A stretch of DNA of 64,000 nucleotides from Gemmatimonadaceae bacterium (GTDB lineage Bacteria > Gemmatimonadota > Gemmatimonadetes > Gemmatimonadales > Gemmatimonadaceae), in contig JAHBVT010000001.1 of the NCBI GenBank assembly GCA_019637355.1, positions 434,001 to 498,000 on the forward strand, written 5' to 3'. Both the position numbers and the translations under genes were made by a program. The notes beneath the pieces were generated by a model. It was not told the DNA's origin. It searched no databases and worked only from the letters and a program-made list of their open reading frames with translations. This document shows, one piece after another, positions 41,492 to 51,139 of this stretch. Every line of letters begins with the position of its first letter. Positions within the stretch are counted from its first letter, which is position 1.

Positions 41492-42601
41492 ATGACCGCG
41501 AGCACGAGCCTCAAGCGCACGCCCTTCCACGCCCTGCACCTTGCCGCCGGCGCCAAGATGGTGCCCTTCGCCGGCTTCGAGATGCCAATCCAGTATCCGA
41601 GCGGCATCACCGCCGAGCACAACGCCGTGCGCAAGAGCTGCGGTGTGTTCGACGTGTCGCATATGGGCGAGTTCATCGTGCGCGGCCCGCAGGCCATCGA
41701 CTTCGTCACGTACGTCACCAGCAATGACGTCGCGGCGCTCAAGGACGGCCAGGTGCACTACTCGGGGATCCTCACGGAACGCGGCACCTTCGTGGACGAC
41801 TGCCTCGTCTACCGCTACGCCGCCGACCACCTGATGATGGTCGTGAACGGCTCCAACAAGGACAAGGACCTCGCCCACATCCAGCAGTACAAGGGCAAGT
41901 TCGACTGCACGCTCGAGGACGTGAGCGACGACATCGGCCTGCTCGCCGTGCAGGGCCCGCAGGCGCAGGAGATCCTCCAGGCGCTGACGCCTGCCGCGCT
42001 CGACGACATCAAGTACTACTGGTTCACCGAAACCACCGTCGCCGGCGTGCCGATGACGCTCTCGCGCACGGGGTACACCGGCGAGGACGGCTTCGAACTG
42101 TACCACGGTGCCAAGGACTCCGAGAAGCTCTGGGCGGCGCTGATGGCCACGGGCCGCATCACGCCGACCGGACTCGGCTGTCGCGACTCGCTGCGCCTCG
42201 AGATGGGGATGGCGCTCTACGGCAATGACATCGACGACAGCTACACCCCGCTTGAAGCCGGACTCGGCTGGCTCGTCAAGATGAAGAAGGGCGACTTCGT
42301 CGGTCGCGCCGCGCTCGAGGCGCAGAAGGCCGTTGGCGTCCCGCGCAAGCTCGTCGGCTTCACCTTCGAAGAGAAGGCCATCCCGCGCCACGGCTACCCG
42401 GTGTTCGTGGGCGGCGAGCCCAGCGGCGTGGTGATGAGCGGCATTATGAGTCCCAGCGTCGGCTGCGGACTCGGCACCGCCTATGTGCCCACCGCGCACG
42501 CCAAGGAAGGCAACACGCTCGAAGTCGAGATCCGCGGCAAGCGCGTGGTGGGGACGATTGTCGGGTTCCCGTTCTGGAAGCAGGGGACGGTGAAGCGTTG
42601 A
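41492..42601 (+). CDS. gcvT: Glycine cleavage system T protein (aminomethyltransferase)
   Basis: 369 residues. [32 protein letters not shown]-type opening ([20 protein letters not shown]), [20 protein letters not shown], and [17 protein letters not shown] are classic GcvT motifs. It transfers the methylene group from the H-protein to THF, releasing ammonia. No gcvH or gcvP is adjacent. The 218-base upstream gap has a possible -10 (TATTGA at 41452-41457); I looked for a glycine riboswitch there and found none. Confidence 0.95.
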
Positions 42602-42674: not shown

Positions 42675-44309
<1,635 letters not shown>

Positions 44310-44376: not shown

Positions 44377-45207
44377 GTGGACTTGTCCGCCGTGCAGCCT
44401 AGGCCGACTCCCACCGTCTCGCCCCAGGAATCCGTGACTCGTTCGCATCAGCCCGCTTCAAGCGAGGTCAGCCCGCTGATTGCAGGCAGCGTGCTCCCGC
44501 TCCAGCGTGCGGAGGAGTTGATCGCGACGTTGAAGGACGTGGTGTCCGCGCGGATCACCGCGACCGAGAACGGGTCAGTGGATGCGATCCACGTGCTCGT
44601 GACGGGCGACACTCCGGCGAAGGCCGTGGTGCGGAACATCGAGAGCGCGCTGATGGCGCAGCTGGGGCTCAAGGTGGATCATCGAAAGATTTCGGTGGCG
44701 GCGACGACGCGCCGGCCGGTGACGGGCGAACAGCCGATCGTCGAGGCGCCCTCGGCGCCGCGAGCGGGCATTGGGCGCCCCGTGTACTTCGAGGATGTGG
44801 AGCTTCGCGGTTCCCGCGCGCGCGGCGTGACCTGCAAGGTGACGCTGCGGATTGGGGCCGAGCAGTTTGCGGGCGAAGCCGAGGAGACCGTGCAGAGCGA
44901 CCGCAGCCGCGTGGATGTCAGCGCGCGCGCGGCGCTGATGGCGCTCAGCCTGGCCGGTCCGACGGGCGGGATTTTTTCGCTCGAGGGCGCGAAGCTGATC
45001 ACCGCGTTCGAGCGGGAGTTCGTGTTTGCGGCGGTGATGGCGCGCAGCGGTCGGGAGCAGGTGTTGCTGACCGGGAGCGCGGAGGTCCGCGATAGCGCCG
45101 AGACCGCGGCCGTGCTGGCCGTGCTCGATGCGACGAATCGATGGATGGCGACGTTGGCGGCCGGCGAGACGATGCCGGTGATTGAGGAGCGTCGCGGTCT
45201 GCGGTAG
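44377..45207 (+). CDS. Conserved-looking protein of unknown function
   Basis: 276 residues from GTG 44377. Residues 1-40 are Pro/Ser-rich. Residues ~43-110 form one domain (ARITATENGSVDAIHVLVTG, then VVRNIESALMAQLGLKVDHRKISVA), which resembles a small alpha/beta regulatory unit. After a Pro-rich linker, residues ~137-265 form a second alpha/beta unit (YFEDVELRGSRARGVTCKVTLRIG, SRVDVSARAALMALSLAG). No membrane helix or signal. I recognise no named family. A possible promoter TAGATA/ATATTG lies near 44347, right after the activator gene. Confidence 0.65.
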   Translation: MDLSAVQPRPTPTVSPQESVTRSHQPASSEVSPLIAGSVLPLQRAEELIATLKDVVSARITATENGSVDAIHVLVTGDTPAKAVVRNIESALMAQLGLKVDHRKISVAATTRRPVTGEQPIVEAPSAPRAGIGRPVYFEDVELRGSRARGVTCKVTLRIGAEQFAGEAEETVQSDRSRVDVSARAALMALSLAGPTGGIFSLEGAKLITAFEREFVFAAVMARSGREQVLLTGSAEVRDSAETAAVLAVLDATNRWMATLAAGETMPVIEERRGLR

Positions 45208-45395
45208 GGATGAGTAGGTGTAGGGAACGGAAGGACGAGCGGTCAGAAGGGAAGCGAACCGACGAAAGAGGTACCCCTCGTTCTCTCTGAGAGGAGAGGA
45301 CACAAGCGGTGCGCCTGACGGCGCGACGAGCGGAGCCGACCTGATGTGATGGGCACCTGGAGACGGGTGATCTCATTGACGGGAGGTGATTCTCG
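45208..45395. other. Non-coding stretch before the micro-ORF
   Basis: Purine-rich DNA with short complementary blocks (e.g. CTCTC-TGA-GAGAG-like at ~45281-45298). I see no convincing gene, riboswitch or strong terminator here. The full gap between flanking genes (45208-45514) holds only the micro-ORF described next. Confidence 0.5.
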
Positions 45396-45467
45396 ATGAC
45401 GTACATCTGTTCACTCTGTGCCGCGCTGGCGGCGTTTGTGATGGGTGATTCGCAGAGCTGGGCATAA
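45396..45467 (+). CDS. Micro-ORF of 23 codons with a perfect ribosome binding site
   Basis: ATG 45396 to TAA 45467. GGAGGTGAT (45382-45390) is fully complementary to the usual 3' end of bacterial 16S rRNA and lies five bases from the ATG, the best Shine-Dalgarno in the window. The peptide has a hydrophobic, Cys-containing first half (TYICSLCAALAAFVMG) and a polar end (DSQSWA). It is 47 bases upstream of the membrane HD-GYP gene. It could be a leader peptide, a small membrane peptide or a signal; none is proven. Confidence 0.5.
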   Translation: MTYICSLCAALAAFVMGDSQSWA

Positions 45468-45513
45468 GAAGGTGCGAGGGCGAGGGGTCCTCCGGTTAGC
45501 ATCAAAGGAGACG

Positions 45514-48500
45514 CATGAGGTCCTCTGGGGTGGAGCGGATTGTCGAGGTTGTCGTCGCGGGGGCCATGGTGTCCATCGCGGCTTTTTTTGCTTTGGGTGA
45601 CGCTCCGAGCGCTTACGACTGGCAGGCCGCAGGTTTCTTCACAGGACTTGGGATTCTCGCGGCTGCTCTGTCGTACCCCGTAGGGCGCGCGACGTCAGGA
45701 ACCATAGGCTTTCTGCCCTACCTAAGCATATCCATCATCGCGCCAAATCTCGCGGCGGTTCTCTCTGTTGCGATCAGTACGGCATTTGCGGAACTCATTC
45801 AGAAGCGCGCACGGCAGAAAGCTGCCTTCAACATCGGTCAGCACACGTTTGCTATCGCCTGTGGGATCTGGGTATACCACTCGCTGGGGGGCACGTCGGT
45901 CATCGCTGGCGGTCCGCGAGTCTGGCCGTTTCTTGGTCTCGCTGCGACATACTTTGCGCTCAACAAGCTTGCGGTAAGCACCGTAGTCGCTAAGACCGCC
46001 GGTGATAGTGTCCTTCTTCACTGGCTGAAGAGTGTGCGAGGGTCTAGCCTTTACGACGCACTCTCTCTGCCGCTGGTCGTCGTTCTCTCGTTGGTGTTCG
46101 TTTCGAAAGGGGCAGCCTGGACAGCGGTTGCAGCGCTACCGATGCTGGGCATTCGTCAGCTCTATCGCATGGTCTTCGCACTTGAGAAGATCAACGAAGA
46201 GCTGTTGCAGCTAATGGTGGCCTCAATCGAAGCGAGGGATCCCTACACGTCTGGTCATTCGCAGCGTGTGGCGCGATACGCGCGCGAAATTGCCCGTTCA
46301 GCTGGGTTGAGTGCCAAGGGCATTGAGCGTGTCGAGATGGCGGCGCTCCTTCACGACGTCGGCAAGATCCATGAGGAGTTTGCCACGATACTAAGAAAGC
46401 CCGGCAGGCTGACAGTCGAGGAGTTTGCTCGCATGAAGCTGCACCCCGTCAGGAGCGCCGACCTCGTGGCAAAGGTATCTCACTTCCGAGACCTAGTGGC
46501 GGTAGTGCGCGCTCACCATGAGGCCTGGAATGGCACCGGATATCCCGATCAGCTTCATGGCGACGCGATACCACATCACTCACGAATCATCGCGATAGCT
46601 GACACTGTCGATGCGATGACGACATCTCGTCCGTACAGGGCCGGAATGACACCTGCTCGGGTGCGAGAGGAACTCGCAGCTGAGAGTGGGAGGCAGTTCG
46701 ACCCACGCATCTGCGCTGCATTGCTGGCTCCCGCGAACTGGACTCGTCTCGAGCAGACGATCACATCGGCTCAGGCGGAGTTTCCGGCCAATGAGTCCGG
46801 TGTAGAGGGGCAGGGAACGAACGGCAACACGGGAGAGTTCGTTTCGGCGTTAGTCTCAGCTTAAGGCGGCGAGTTCGATGTAGAACGGGGGCACGGGAGG
46901 GCGACTGGACTCCCTGAATCGGCGCATGTGGGCAGAGGCAACTTGGTACGCTTTCGAGTCGTCGCCGAGAGTCTTGAGTCCTCGCACGGTAAGTTCCACG
47001 GCAAAGTGGCTTCCAATCATGCCGTACGATTTCGGCGCAAGCTCAAGCAACTCATCAGAAAGCGCTGCGGCTTGTCGCGACATCCCCGATTTCGCGAAGC
47101 AGTAGCACGCGAGCGATAGCTCGCCGAGTTTGCTCGGTACGTCGCCAAACCTCCGTGCTATAGGCAGTCGCTCGCCGATGCGAACTGCGACCTTCTCGAA
47201 CAATCCCATCTGCATCCAGAGTCGATCCTGCGCGTGCACCGCAGATGTTCGTGTTGTACCAAAGGCTGCTACTGAATCAAGTTTCATCCCCTTGTCTATC
47301 CACTGCTCGGCCCGGCCTGTGTCACAGTAGTCGAGAAACAGAAACGAAAGCGCGTCTGCAGCGACCCGAGCTAAGTGCGGAAGCCCGTGTTCAATTGCGA
47401 TCGCGAAGGCCGCTTCACCTCGACGAGCAGCGCCCTCGAGGTCGCCAGCGTGTCGAAGAGCATTGCACGCAACTCGCTCGATGTGACAGCGCTCGGCCAC
47501 ATCTGCGGAATCGGGCCACTGAGCTGGCGACTCAGACACAGCAGCAACAATATCCGTTGCGCACCCCAGTTCGGATGCGCCAATCACTCGGGTCAGCCAA
47601 GCGGCAACGCTTGGAGCGTCCAGCTTATCCTCCAGCCTTCGTGATTCCTCAACAAGTTCCACAAGAAGAGAGCGGTTGTGTCTGTTCACGGCAAGGCGAG
47701 CTCCGACAAGACATGCGCGCAGTCTAGACTCTAGCCCGAGCTGTCCGCTTCTTGCTAGAGAAGCGATCTCCGCCACCGGTCCATCGCTCAACATATCAAG
47801 TCGCAGTTCTGCCTCGCCGACCGTCACTAGAGCCGAGAGACGCTCAGGCGCCAACCTAGGATCACGTAGAGCTGAGGACTGGAGGCATTGTTTCGCCACC
47901 TCAAGCGCCGTGGCAGGATCGCCGTCGAGTAGGTGGGCGCGAGCGCGGCGAGCAGCGATTCGCGCGTGAGGCGCAGGCGAGCTCGCAAGCTCCGCGAGGC
48001 TGTCGAGGCTCGAGAGCGTCTCTGCGACCAGTCCTAGTGCGTATAGAGTGTCTGATGCGCCAATGAGATGCTCAAGTGCGCGCTCCTTCTCGCCGGCAAG
48101 GTTTAGCAAGTGGGCAACGCGACGTGAGAGGGAGATGTCATCAACGTGCGCTTCCCGCTCTAGGTCTTCGGCGCACTCGAGCGCGAGTGCCATCGTAAGG
48201 GTGGCAGGAGTACTTGACACGACAGCTTCCTTCCAGCAGTCGTGCAGCTGTAAGACGCCAGTGTCGCGAGCGGAAATCATCCCATCGAGTTCGAGAGTTT
48301 CTATGGTGTGTTGAAGTGATTCGTGGCTAGTAGCGCACAGTCGGCGCAGACGCGCCAGGGTAGCTGTGTCCCCTAGAAGAGTGATAAGTCGCAGCGTCCG
48401 TACTCCGAGCTCGGACAGGGATGCCAGGCGAGAGCTGATTACTTTCTGAAGTGTGTCCGGTAGGAGCTTCGCCGCCACGGCAAGTGACTGGGACAGCGAC

Positions 48501-49202
48501 AGTTCACGAAGGAAGAGCGGATTGCCGCCAGCAGCCTCTACAACGCGGTCCAGCGAGTGCCCGCTTGAAGTGAGATGAAGCTGCGCAAGAGTCTCATGAG
48601 CAAGAGTGCGCGACTCCGCCCGGGAGAGGGTGTGGATGCGAACGGTGGTGTGTGCAGACTGCGATAGAGGTGCGCTGAGACGAGCGAGCGCTTCCGGTCG
48701 GTACGCACATATCATTGCACAGTTCGTAGAAATCGCAGCGAGTTCAAGTGTGCCGATGAGCACCGCTGAGAATTCATCTGCCCAGTGCAGGTCGTCAATT
48801 GTTACAAGCAGCTTCCCCTCCTCCGCAATCGCACGGATGAGACGGCTTGCTGCAGCGGCAATGTGGTCTCGAGTCTGCGCCACCGGACCTGCAACAGCGC
48901 CCGGGTCAAACGATCCATCATGATATACGAGCTTGCGAAGAAGGTTGATGTCATTCGGTGGGGCGGCCGCGGCACCTGGAACATCCAGCAGCTGTCTAAG
49001 TAGGCCTTGGAAGAGCGCGAGCGGCAAAGTGGTCATGATTGGTTCGGCACTGACTGCAATCGTTCGCGTTCCTCGCACCCTCCCGAACTCTCGGGCCTCG
49101 GCAAGTAGCCTCGACTTGCCGATGCCAGGCCCACCGATAAGGTGTGAGTGCGTGCTTTTTCCGGCGATGGCGCCCTCGATGCAGGCAGTGACGATCTGCA
49201 TG
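45514..49202. other. Lower-GC, CATG-containing segment (probable recent acquisition)
   Basis: I count 14 CATG sites here (first at 45514, last at 49199) against five in the other ~60 kb. Codon use is also less GC-biased than in neighbours (e.g. frequent A/T third positions). It covers the HD-GYP gene and most of the large regulator, but not that gene's N-terminal ~220 codons. No flanking repeats or integrase were found. Confidence 0.65.
45515..46864 (+). CDS. Membrane HD-GYP-domain phosphodiesterase-like protein
   Basis: 449 residues. Residues ~8-215 hold about seven to eight membrane helices (e.g. VVVAGAMVSIAAFFALG, ALSLPLVVVLSLVFVS) resembling a MASE-type sensor. The HD-GYP domain (~230-400) has SIEARDPYTSGHSQRVARYA, LLHDVGKIHEEFATILRKPG, HPVRSADL and HHEAWNGTGYPDQLHG, with the metal ligands and GYP intact. 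It probably degrades c-di-GMP or a related dinucleotide in response to a membrane signal. GGAG precedes the ATG. It overlaps the convergent regulator by nine bases. Confidence 0.87.
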   Translation: MRSSGVERIVEVVVAGAMVSIAAFFALGDAPSAYDWQAAGFFTGLGILAAALSYPVGRATSGTIGFLPYLSISIIAPNLAAVLSVAISTAFAELIQKRARQKAAFNIGQHTFAIACGIWVYHSLGGTSVIAGGPRVWPFLGLAATYFALNKLAVSTVVAKTAGDSVLLHWLKSVRGSSLYDALSLPLVVVLSLVFVSKGAAWTAVAALPMLGIRQLYRMVFALEKINEELLQLMVASIEARDPYTSGHSQRVARYAREIARSAGLSAKGIERVEMAALLHDVGKIHEEFATILRKPGRLTVEEFARMKLHPVRSADLVAKVSHFRDLVAVVRAHHEAWNGTGYPDQLHGDAIPHHSRIIAIADTVDAMTTSRPYRAGMTPARVREELAAESGRQFDPRICAALLAPANWTRLEQTITSAQAEFPANESGVEGQGTNGNTGEFVSALVSA

Positions 49203-49981
49203 GTGGACTCGCGACCAATCAGCCGTGTATCTCGCGCTGAAGGTGCGGACCAGTCCGCTCGCCTTTCAGCAATGCGACGGCGCATCGAGAGAGCTGGCTT
49301 GCCCAGTTCCGATGAGATGTGGCCGACCTCCGTCAGGTACTCATCGAGAATCCCCAGCGCTGCCACCTTCGACCCTTCCATAGCAGTCGCCTCAGCGCGC
49401 GCCAACGTCGCCTCCTCATTCAACGGATCCGATCGCAAAATCACCTTCGCCCACCGATCCAGATCCGCCCACCGCCCCTCCCGACGCGCCTGAACCACCT
49501 GCCGCTGCGCCGCCCGCCGCTGCTGCGCCTCCACCTCGCTCCGCACCCCGTCAAACCACTCCAGCACCTTCTCCGGCATCCGCCCACTAAACGTCGGCCC
49601 CAACGCCAACGACGCCTCCACCACCTCCGCTGGCGCCGACTCCGCCCACTCCGCCGCCAAACACTCCCGCAAATCACTATCCACCCGCGACGGATCCAGC
49701 CGCAGGAACTCCCCCTCCTCGTCAAACACCAACCCCTTCTGCCGGAGCCGATACAGCATCTGCCGCATCGCGTGCCGCCGCGCGTCCTCCTCACCCGTGG
49801 GCCAGAAGACCTCCAGCAGCTCCTCGCGAGGAATGCGCTCCCCGGCTCGCGTGGTCAGGTACAACGCCAAGGCGAACATCGCCTCGGTGTTCATCCCGAT
49901 CTTCCGCGACCCGACGTGGATCTCGGCCTTCCCCAGCACGCGGACCCGCACGAGGTCCGGCTTCACCGGTTTCTTCGCCAT
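46856..49981 (-). CDS. Large BTAD-ATPase-TPR transcriptional regulator-like protein
   Basis: 1041 residues from ATG 49981; GTG 49999 is an alternative. Residues ~10-90 are a winged-helix (OmpR/SARP-like) DNA-binding domain (VRVRVLGKAEIHVGSRKIGM, RHAMRQMLYRLRQKGLVF). Residues ~95-240 are a BTAD-like helical domain. Residues ~255-560 are an AAA/STAND ATPase with Walker A GGPGIGKSR and Walker B LLVTIDDLHWAD. The rest (~600-1041) is helical repeat, TPR-like. It resembles SARP/AfsR-type activators. The coding DNA of the first ~220 codons is G-rich like the host, the rest is not. Confidence 0.85.
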   Translation of the reverse strand: MAKKPVKPDLVRVRVLGKAEIHVGSRKIGMNTEAMFALALYLTTRAGERIPREELLEVFWPTGEEDARRHAMRQMLYRLRQKGLVFDEEGEFLRLDPSRVDSDLRECLAAEWAESAPAEVVEASLALGPTFSGRMPEKVLEWFDGVRSEVEAQQRRAAQRQVVQARREGRWADLDRWAKVILRSDPLNEEATLARAEATAMEGSKVAALGILDEYLTEVGHISSELGKPALSMRRRIAERRADWSAPSARDTRLIGRESTMQIVTACIEGAIAGKSTHSHLIGGPGIGKSRLLAEAREFGRVRGTRTIAVSAEPIMTTLPLALFQGLLRQLLDVPGAAAAPPNDINLLRKLVYHDGSFDPGAVAGPVAQTRDHIAAAASRLIRAIAEEGKLLVTIDDLHWADEFSAVLIGTLELAAISTNCAMICAYRPEALARLSAPLSQSAHTTVRIHTLSRAESRTLAHETLAQLHLTSSGHSLDRVVEAAGGNPLFLRELSLSQSLAVAAKLLPDTLQKVISSRLASLSELGVRTLRLITLLGDTATLARLRRLCATSHESLQHTIETLELDGMISARDTGVLQLHDCWKEAVVSSTPATLTMALALECAEDLEREAHVDDISLSRRVAHLLNLAGEKERALEHLIGASDTLYALGLVAETLSSLDSLAELASSPAPHARIAARRARAHLLDGDPATALEVAKQCLQSSALRDPRLAPERLSALVTVGEAELRLDMLSDGPVAEIASLARSGQLGLESRLRACLVGARLAVNRHNRSLLVELVEESRRLEDKLDAPSVAAWLTRVIGASELGCATDIVAAVSESPAQWPDSADVAERCHIERVACNALRHAGDLEGAARRGEAAFAIAIEHGLPHLARVAADALSFLFLDYCDTGRAEQWIDKGMKLDSVAAFGTTRTSAVHAQDRLWMQMGLFEKVAVRIGERLPIARRFGDVPSKLGELSLACYCFAKSGMSRQAAALSDELLELAPKSYGMIGSHFAVELTVRGLKTLGDDSKAYQVASAHMRRFRESSRPPVPPFYIELAALS

Positions 49982-50122
49982 AGCACCATATCCTCGCACC
50001 CCCCGTCACCCGCCCGTCACTCGGCGGATTCTGCGCCTGGGGGCAGCAGTCCGCTAGGGATGCGAAACGCGCCGCCGGTCCTGAGGACCGACGGCGCGCG
50101 TGACTGCCGTGAGACGCGGGAT

Positions 50123-51139
50123 CTACCGCCCGGAACGCCCGCCGAGCCCGAGGATCTGCTCGATCCCCACACCCTCGGCCTCGGCCTGGAAGTTGAGCAC
50201 CACACGGTGCCTGAGCACGCTGAAGGCCACGGCGTCGACGTCCTCGAGGTCAGGGACCGCGCGGCCGTCCATCGCGGCACGCGCCTTGGCCCCCAGCACG
50301 AGGTTCTGCCCAGCGCGCGGACCGGCGCCGAAGCTCACGTACTTCTTCACCGCCGGCGTGGCCTCGGGCTCGCCAGGCCGCGTCGCGCGCGCGAGTCCGA
50401 CGGCATACTGCACCAACGACGGCGGTGCAGGCAGACGACGCACCAACTGCTGCATCTCCAAGACCTCGGCGGCCGTCAGCACCGGCTTCACGACGCCCTT
50501 CTGCACGCCGGTGGTGGTGGAGACGATGTCCTCTTCCTCACCGACGCTGGGGTAGCCCATCCGCAACTCGTACATAAAACGGTCGAGCTGCGCTTCGGGC
50601 AGGTGGTAGGTGCCCTCCTGCTCGATGGGGTTCTGCGTCGCGAGCACAAAGAAGGGCTCGGGCAAGGTGTAGGTCTTGCCCGCCACGGTCACCGTGTGCT
50701 CCTGCATCGCCTGCAGCAGCGCGGCCTGCGTCTTCGGCGGCGCACGGTTGATCTCGTCGGCCAGCACGATGTTGCCGAACACGGGACCGCGCGCGAACGT
50801 GAACGCCCGCTTGCCGGTGCCGTGGTCCTCCTCGAGCAGCTCGGTCCCGGTGATGTCGCTGGGCATCAGGTCGGGTGTGAACTGGATGCGGCTGAACTCG
50901 AGGTCGAGCGCCTGACTCAGCGTCTGGATCAGCAGCGTCTTGGCGAGCCCCGGCACGCCGACCAGCAGCACGTGGCCCCCGGCGAGCACTGCCGACGTAA
51001 GCATATCGACGATCTCGCCCTGGCCGACGATGCGCTGCGCAATCTGCCGCCCCATCTCGCGACGGGCCTCGGCGAGGCGTGCCAACAGCTCCAAGTCTCG
51101 CGCGTCCGCGGCGGCGTCGCGCACTGCAGTCTGGCTCAC
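50123..51139 (-). CDS. MoxR-family AAA+ ATPase
   Basis: 338 residues from GTG 51139. ADARDLELLARLAEARREMG leads into QRIVGQGEIVDMLTSAVLAGGHVLLVGVPGLAKT (Walker A GVPGLAKT), FTPDLMPSDITGTELL, Walker B NIVLADEINRAPPKTQAALL and ATQNPIEQEGTYHLPEAQLDRF. MoxR proteins act as chaperone-like ATPases, often with VWA-domain partners; none is adjacent here. It is divergent from a two-component system with a 173-base gap. Confidence 0.93.
   Translation of the reverse strand: MSQTAVRDAAADARDLELLARLAEARREMGRQIAQRIVGQGEIVDMLTSAVLAGGHVLLVGVPGLAKTLLIQTLSQALDLEFSRIQFTPDLMPSDITGTELLEEDHGTGKRAFTFARGPVFGNIVLADEINRAPPKTQAALLQAMQEHTVTVAGKTYTLPEPFFVLATQNPIEQEGTYHLPEAQLDRFMYELRMGYPSVGEEEDIVSTTTGVQKGVVKPVLTAAEVLEMQQLVRRLPAPPSLVQYAVGLARATRPGEPEATPAVKKYVSFGAGPRAGQNLVLGAKARAAMDGRAVPDLEDVDAVAFSVLRHRVVLNFQAEAEGVGIEQILGLGGRSGR

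Follow-up and report, generated by a model that had tools for sequence, protein, structure and literature searches.

CATG sites in a two-gene signalling locus of a CATG-depleted Gemmatimonadaceae genome suggest in-place allele replacement from a near relative

The tetranucleotide CATG is nearly absent from the window analysed here (the whole stretch of 64,000 nucleotides, positions 434,001 to 498,000 of the 3.14-Mb contig C1 of a Gemmatimonadaceae genome, G000), apart from a short segment formed by a gene for an HD-GYP protein and most of a convergent regulator gene. We consider it likely that, after CATG had been purged from the lineage, the allele resident at this locus was replaced in place by that of a near relative outside the sampled genomes, at what looks like a site of recurrent exchange; the best reading of the event is therefore a substitution of one allele for another and not the gain of new genes. 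A word that is taboo throughout a genome marks the time at which DNA arrived independently of its GC content, and can expose replacements by near relatives' alleles that composition-based methods miss, donor and recipient being alike.

Distribution of CATG in the window and the genome

Dinucleotide shuffles of the window gave an expectation of 243.7 +/- 12.1 CATG, against 19 observed, and CATG was the sole one of the 16 palindromic tetranucleotides to be so depleted. Under a Markov model the segment (Table 1) carries 14 sites for 15.0 expected (observed/expected ratio, o/e, 0.93) and the remaining 60.3 kb of the window 5 for 179 expected (o/e 0.03), which bears out the preliminary description both in the chance level that it reported inside the segment beside near-absence elsewhere and in its coordinates, within which all 14 sites lie. 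Genome statistics were obtained from sampled stretches and not from the whole genome: twenty evenly spaced 20-kb stretches of G000 (400 kb) held 79 CATG vs. 1183 expected, mostly in a few islands, while in 734 kb 193 of the 239 sites fell in eleven clusters over 63 kb, leaving 46 in about 671 kb. At this native density, the probability of at least 14 CATG in 3.69 kb is about 4e-20. To our knowledge, the depletion in G000 is among the deeper ones for a tetranucleotide. The small contigs C2 (8761 bp) and C3 (3754 bp) of G000 carry 19 and 10 CATG, respectively, near chance and unlike C1, and may be misbinned or mobile.

The first gene of the pair contains six CATG, with a seventh overlapping its start codon, and its product shows an HD_5 match (E 6e-33) together with the motifs HDVGK and HHEAWNGTGYP in the translation; by domain and motifs it qualifies as an HD-GYP phosphodiesterase, with cyclic-di-GMP hydrolysis as its predicted function. 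The convergent gene, for a candidate AAA_16 (STAND-like) transcription regulator, overlaps it by 9 bp and carries the other seven sites; its AAA_16 match (E 5e-16) is above the cut-off, while the Trans_reg_C match reaches 20.3 bits, below the cut-off of 26.2. The segment had been described as spanning the HD-GYP gene, which it does entirely, and about 80% of the regulator, for which we measured about 75%. A synonymous escape is open to all 13 coding CATG of the segment, and the matching parts of orthologues carry 9-16 sites as compared to its 14.

Table 1. Features of the locus and its neighbours, in window coordinates; boundaries of genes other than the main ones come from simple ORF calling.
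Feature	Position	Strand	Remarks
CATG-bearing segment	45514..49202		14 sites, chance density, CATG-depleted genome around
Membrane-anchored HD-GYP protein, 449 aa	45515..46864	+	MASE9-like N-terminus, HD_5 domain
Large regulator, 1047 aa	46856..49999	-	AAA_16 ATPase, weak winged-helix match N-terminal
gcvT, native left flank	41492..42601	+	no CATG
Sigma-54 dependent activator, native left flank	42675..44309	+	no CATG
276-aa protein, family not recognised, native left flank	44377..45207	+	90% identical to G011 orthologue; no CATG
MoxR-type AAA ATPase, native right flank	50123..51139	-	94% identical to G011; no CATG
Replaced unit, probable extent	45150..50150		edges approximate, placed by the drop in identity to G011

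Selection against the word and its candidate agent

The depletion is specific to the lineage, being absent or partial in relatives, whose o/e ranges overall from about 0.28 to 1.0 (0.76 in the sister genome G011, 0.89 in G009, 0.48 in G015 and 0.28 in G001). Where the flanks of the segment were aligned to G011, only 1 of the 127 CATG of the latter was kept in G000, whereas comparable words were mostly kept at 40-65%, and none was kept of the 22 flank sites that have CATG in both G011 and G015. In sampled stretches, the congeners G001 and G015 combine their partial avoidance with the same codon signature as G000, which suggests that the taboo has been gained and lost within the genus.

This signature differs with codon context. 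At fourfold sites preceding an ATG codon, C falls to 1.1% (59% before other codons starting with A), G rises to 88.5% and T, at 2.1%, is unchanged; twofold C/T codons before ATG take T in 91% of cases vs. 7% elsewhere, and histidine before G is encoded by CAC in 98.8% vs. 71% elsewhere. Since the synonymous escape that is used changes from one context to the next, unlike what a single mutational bias would yield, the loss of CATG is due to selection on the word, and C-to-T loss through cytosine deamination is rejected as its cause, fourfold sites having moved to G with no rise in T. The rRNA operon, in which no synonymous escape is available, retains CATG sites found in relatives, indicating that carrying CATG is not lethal.

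Avoidance of restriction sites deepens with the residence time of the restriction system, is strongest for long-resident systems and can outlive the system itself (Rusinov et al., 2015; PMC4687349). The strong, genome-wide under-representation of a palindromic word in G000 resembles this phenomenon, and its ratio of 0.03, like the counts in the 400 kb sampled, falls within the threshold of 0.78 adopted in that study; G000 differs in how far under this value the o/e of about 0.03 outside the islands lies, and in that no cognate CATG system can be named. By this analogy, the selecting agent is most likely a CATG-recognising restriction-modification system, past or present. Methylases of the D12, N6_N4 and C5 families were found, although sequence alone does not give their specificity; a CATG methylase was sought in these three families across six genomes and none could be assigned, while a plasmid search for one returned generic methylase names only. 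The D12 methylase at 2.82 Mb has same-family matches in G009 and G011, two genomes in which avoidance of CATG is slight or absent, and the methylase locus at 539-542.7 kb is itself CATG-normal. The latter island (about 538.9-542.7 kb of C1; L088:8892-12682) groups a gene with weak PADLOC matches with D12-class and N6_N4 methylases; its normal CATG content points to a probable arrival later than the purge, which makes it an unlikely cause. In the literature searched, nothing was found for this phylum on avoidance or methylation of CATG.

The locus in related genomes

The same convergent pair, with the same neighbours, occurs in most of the genus and family genomes that were read, flanked on the left by gcvT, the sigma-54 activator and the 276-aa gene, and on the right usually by MoxR; the exceptions are G001, which has the HD-GYP gene only, and G010, which has the regulator only. 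In G011 the two genes are separated by about 1.06 kb (L056:13504-14565), containing a reading frame that we take to resemble an IS481-type transposase. GC content in G000 is 0.58-0.60 over 45.5-49.5 kb vs. about 0.67-0.70 alongside, and GC3 is 0.64 in the HD-GYP gene and 0.59 in the last 75% of the regulator, vs. 0.86-0.92 in the neighbours. The dip in GC is also present in the relatives that carry the pair, and that in GC3 likewise where it was measured, so that neither constitutes an independent sign of import, and the composition of the segment is native to the locus. The lower GC and less GC-biased codon use of the preliminary description are thus real as a shift, but lose their value as evidence of import: judged from the relatives, GC and codon use are normal for this locus, and CATG alone sets the segment apart. 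A call first made on composition is in this way corrected, with the GC dip a property of the locus in all relatives that carry the pair and CATG the marker of the event.

Trees of the HD-GYP protein and of the regulator both place G000 with G011 and G002 (99-100 support), as do trees of the flanks. A conflict of topology between segment and flanks was sought in these HD-GYP, regulator and flank trees and none was found, nor was a donor, the closest HD-GYP protein among the genomes compared having 62-63% identity. As the grouping is the same in segment and flanks, any donor has to be a close relative outside the sampled genomes. The earlier view of a foreign segment has to be corrected, in light of the conserved position, the shared dip and the agreement of both gene trees with the flanks; of the recent transfer then proposed, what survives is the late escape from a genome-wide purge of CATG, and what does not is that the genes were foreign to their locus. 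Orthologues in place with a vertical topology and no shift in composition had been named as the outcome contrary to transfer: the first two were found, and the shift is present, although common to relatives.

The segment is nonetheless far more divergent than its surroundings. Nucleotide identity to G011 falls near 45.15 kb and returns near 50.1-50.2 kb (150-bp steps), and five flanking genes have a normalised synonymous similarity to G011 of 0.25-0.52, as compared to about zero for the HD-GYP gene (0.03) and for both portions of the regulator (-0.05 and -0.02). The distance ratio of the HD-GYP gene, 1.11, is high, although other genes among the 88 neighbouring ones reach such values (the median is 0.75 and the maximum 1.45). 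When G016 is compared with G003, identity is 78-97% in twelve genes of the neighbourhood and 61 and 42% in the two genes of the locus, and in other pairs of relatives, too, synonymous sites are saturated at the locus and not in the neighbours. Because these other pairs are also saturated, weaker codon selection in genes of low GC3 may partly explain the effect. In G015, a half-purged genome, the locus holds 13 CATG in 3.5 kb, where about 5 would fit the other low-GC windows of that genome (17 in 12 kb), an independent check in that the locus had been chosen beforehand from another genome.

Origin of the segment and alternative explanations

With the homologous-recombination mode of allele replacement the locus shares an unchanged position and neighbours combined with alleles that diverge much more strongly than the flanks do, the divergence being subject to the reservation on codon selection; it differs from it in the absence of a topology conflict and of a recognised donor, and in that the time of arrival rests on unpurged CATG. 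A donor near the G000 lineage would produce no such conflict, and replacement by a near relative is preferred because it accommodates both the unpurged, divergent sequence and the vertical topology. In the proposed course of events, selection, most likely exerted by a CATG restriction-modification system, has removed about 97% of the CATG of the lineage; with most of the purge completed, the allele of a close relative outside our sampling, in which CATG had presumably not been purged, would have taken the place of the two-gene unit at about 45.2-50.1 kb, the probable route being homologous recombination across its conserved neighbours. The locus appears to be a site of recurrent exchange, since between close relatives its alleles differ far more than the genes beside them; this hyperdivergence and the CATG of G015 lend support to repeated replacement, and point to a two-gene signalling locus that has seemingly been exchanged several times. 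We advance more tentatively, and with some doubt, the wider proposal that the pair is a locus of recurrent exchange between lineages, with alleles maintained in extreme diversity, as at recognition or sensor loci, and that the CATG taboo can date its individual exchanges.

The late arrival of the segment has to be weighed against the rRNA operon, where native DNA under constraint has been able to retain CATG. An exemption of the locus, inherited vertically and out of reach of the selection on CATG, for instance through a shielding of low-GC or silenced DNA, would agree with the tree topology, with the increase in CATG density as GC falls in G000 and with the CATG-normal state of the locus in G015, itself half purged, and possibly in G001. 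We regard it as unlikely: a stretch of low GC at 519-532 kb, which G011 does not share over the region compared, is largely purged (6 CATG in 17.5 kb), as are native genes of G000 at GC 0.63-0.64, which together weaken low GC as a shield, the other low-GC windows of G015 are depleted where the locus is not, and a mechanism by which a single locus could be shielded is not known to us. Fast protein evolution was rejected as the cause of the CATG content, since native genes that evolve equally fast (38-58% identical to G011) are free of CATG, and so was an effect of the AAA_16 class, in which, among the 30 best matches, only the regulator of the window and one further ATPase gene of low GC, near 1.41 Mb, are rich in CATG. 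That large gene (G000:C1:1409484-1412861; L045:9484-12861), with AAA_22 and AAA_16 matches, forms a CATG island of a single gene, like the regulator.

Transfer from a distant organism, bringing a segment of foreign composition, would account for the CATG content and for a GC lower than that of the genome, and genomic islands marked by composition resemble the segment in departing from the genome signature; yet with GC and codon use normal for the locus in relatives and only CATG differing, with orthologues at the same place in genus and family, and with both proteins joining those of G011 and G002 in the trees (99-100 support), such an origin is refuted in the main and scarcely credible. An assembly artefact, in which the contig switches to the sequence of a co-occurring relative over the locus, appears improbable. 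The genome does seem to be metagenome-assembled (the named relatives are) and a chimera would look alike; gene order and reading frames are, however, unbroken across both edges, and other parts of the same contig contain comparable unpurged islands whose accessory genes are ordinary.

These other CATG-rich islands carry IS110 transposases, transposases that we take to be IS3-like, DNA methylases and further accessory genes. The suggestion that CATG content can serve in this lineage as a marker of transferred DNA is thus well founded where late-arriving DNA is meant; the rRNA operon is an exception. Two related transposase copies, presumably IS3-like as well, differ in the word: the one at 646340-647565 of C1 (L090) lies within a CATG-rich island, lacks CATG altogether and is very high in GC3, and the one at 1707539-1708683 (L047) has two CATG. 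The transposases at these islands may be older residents than the islands that surround them.
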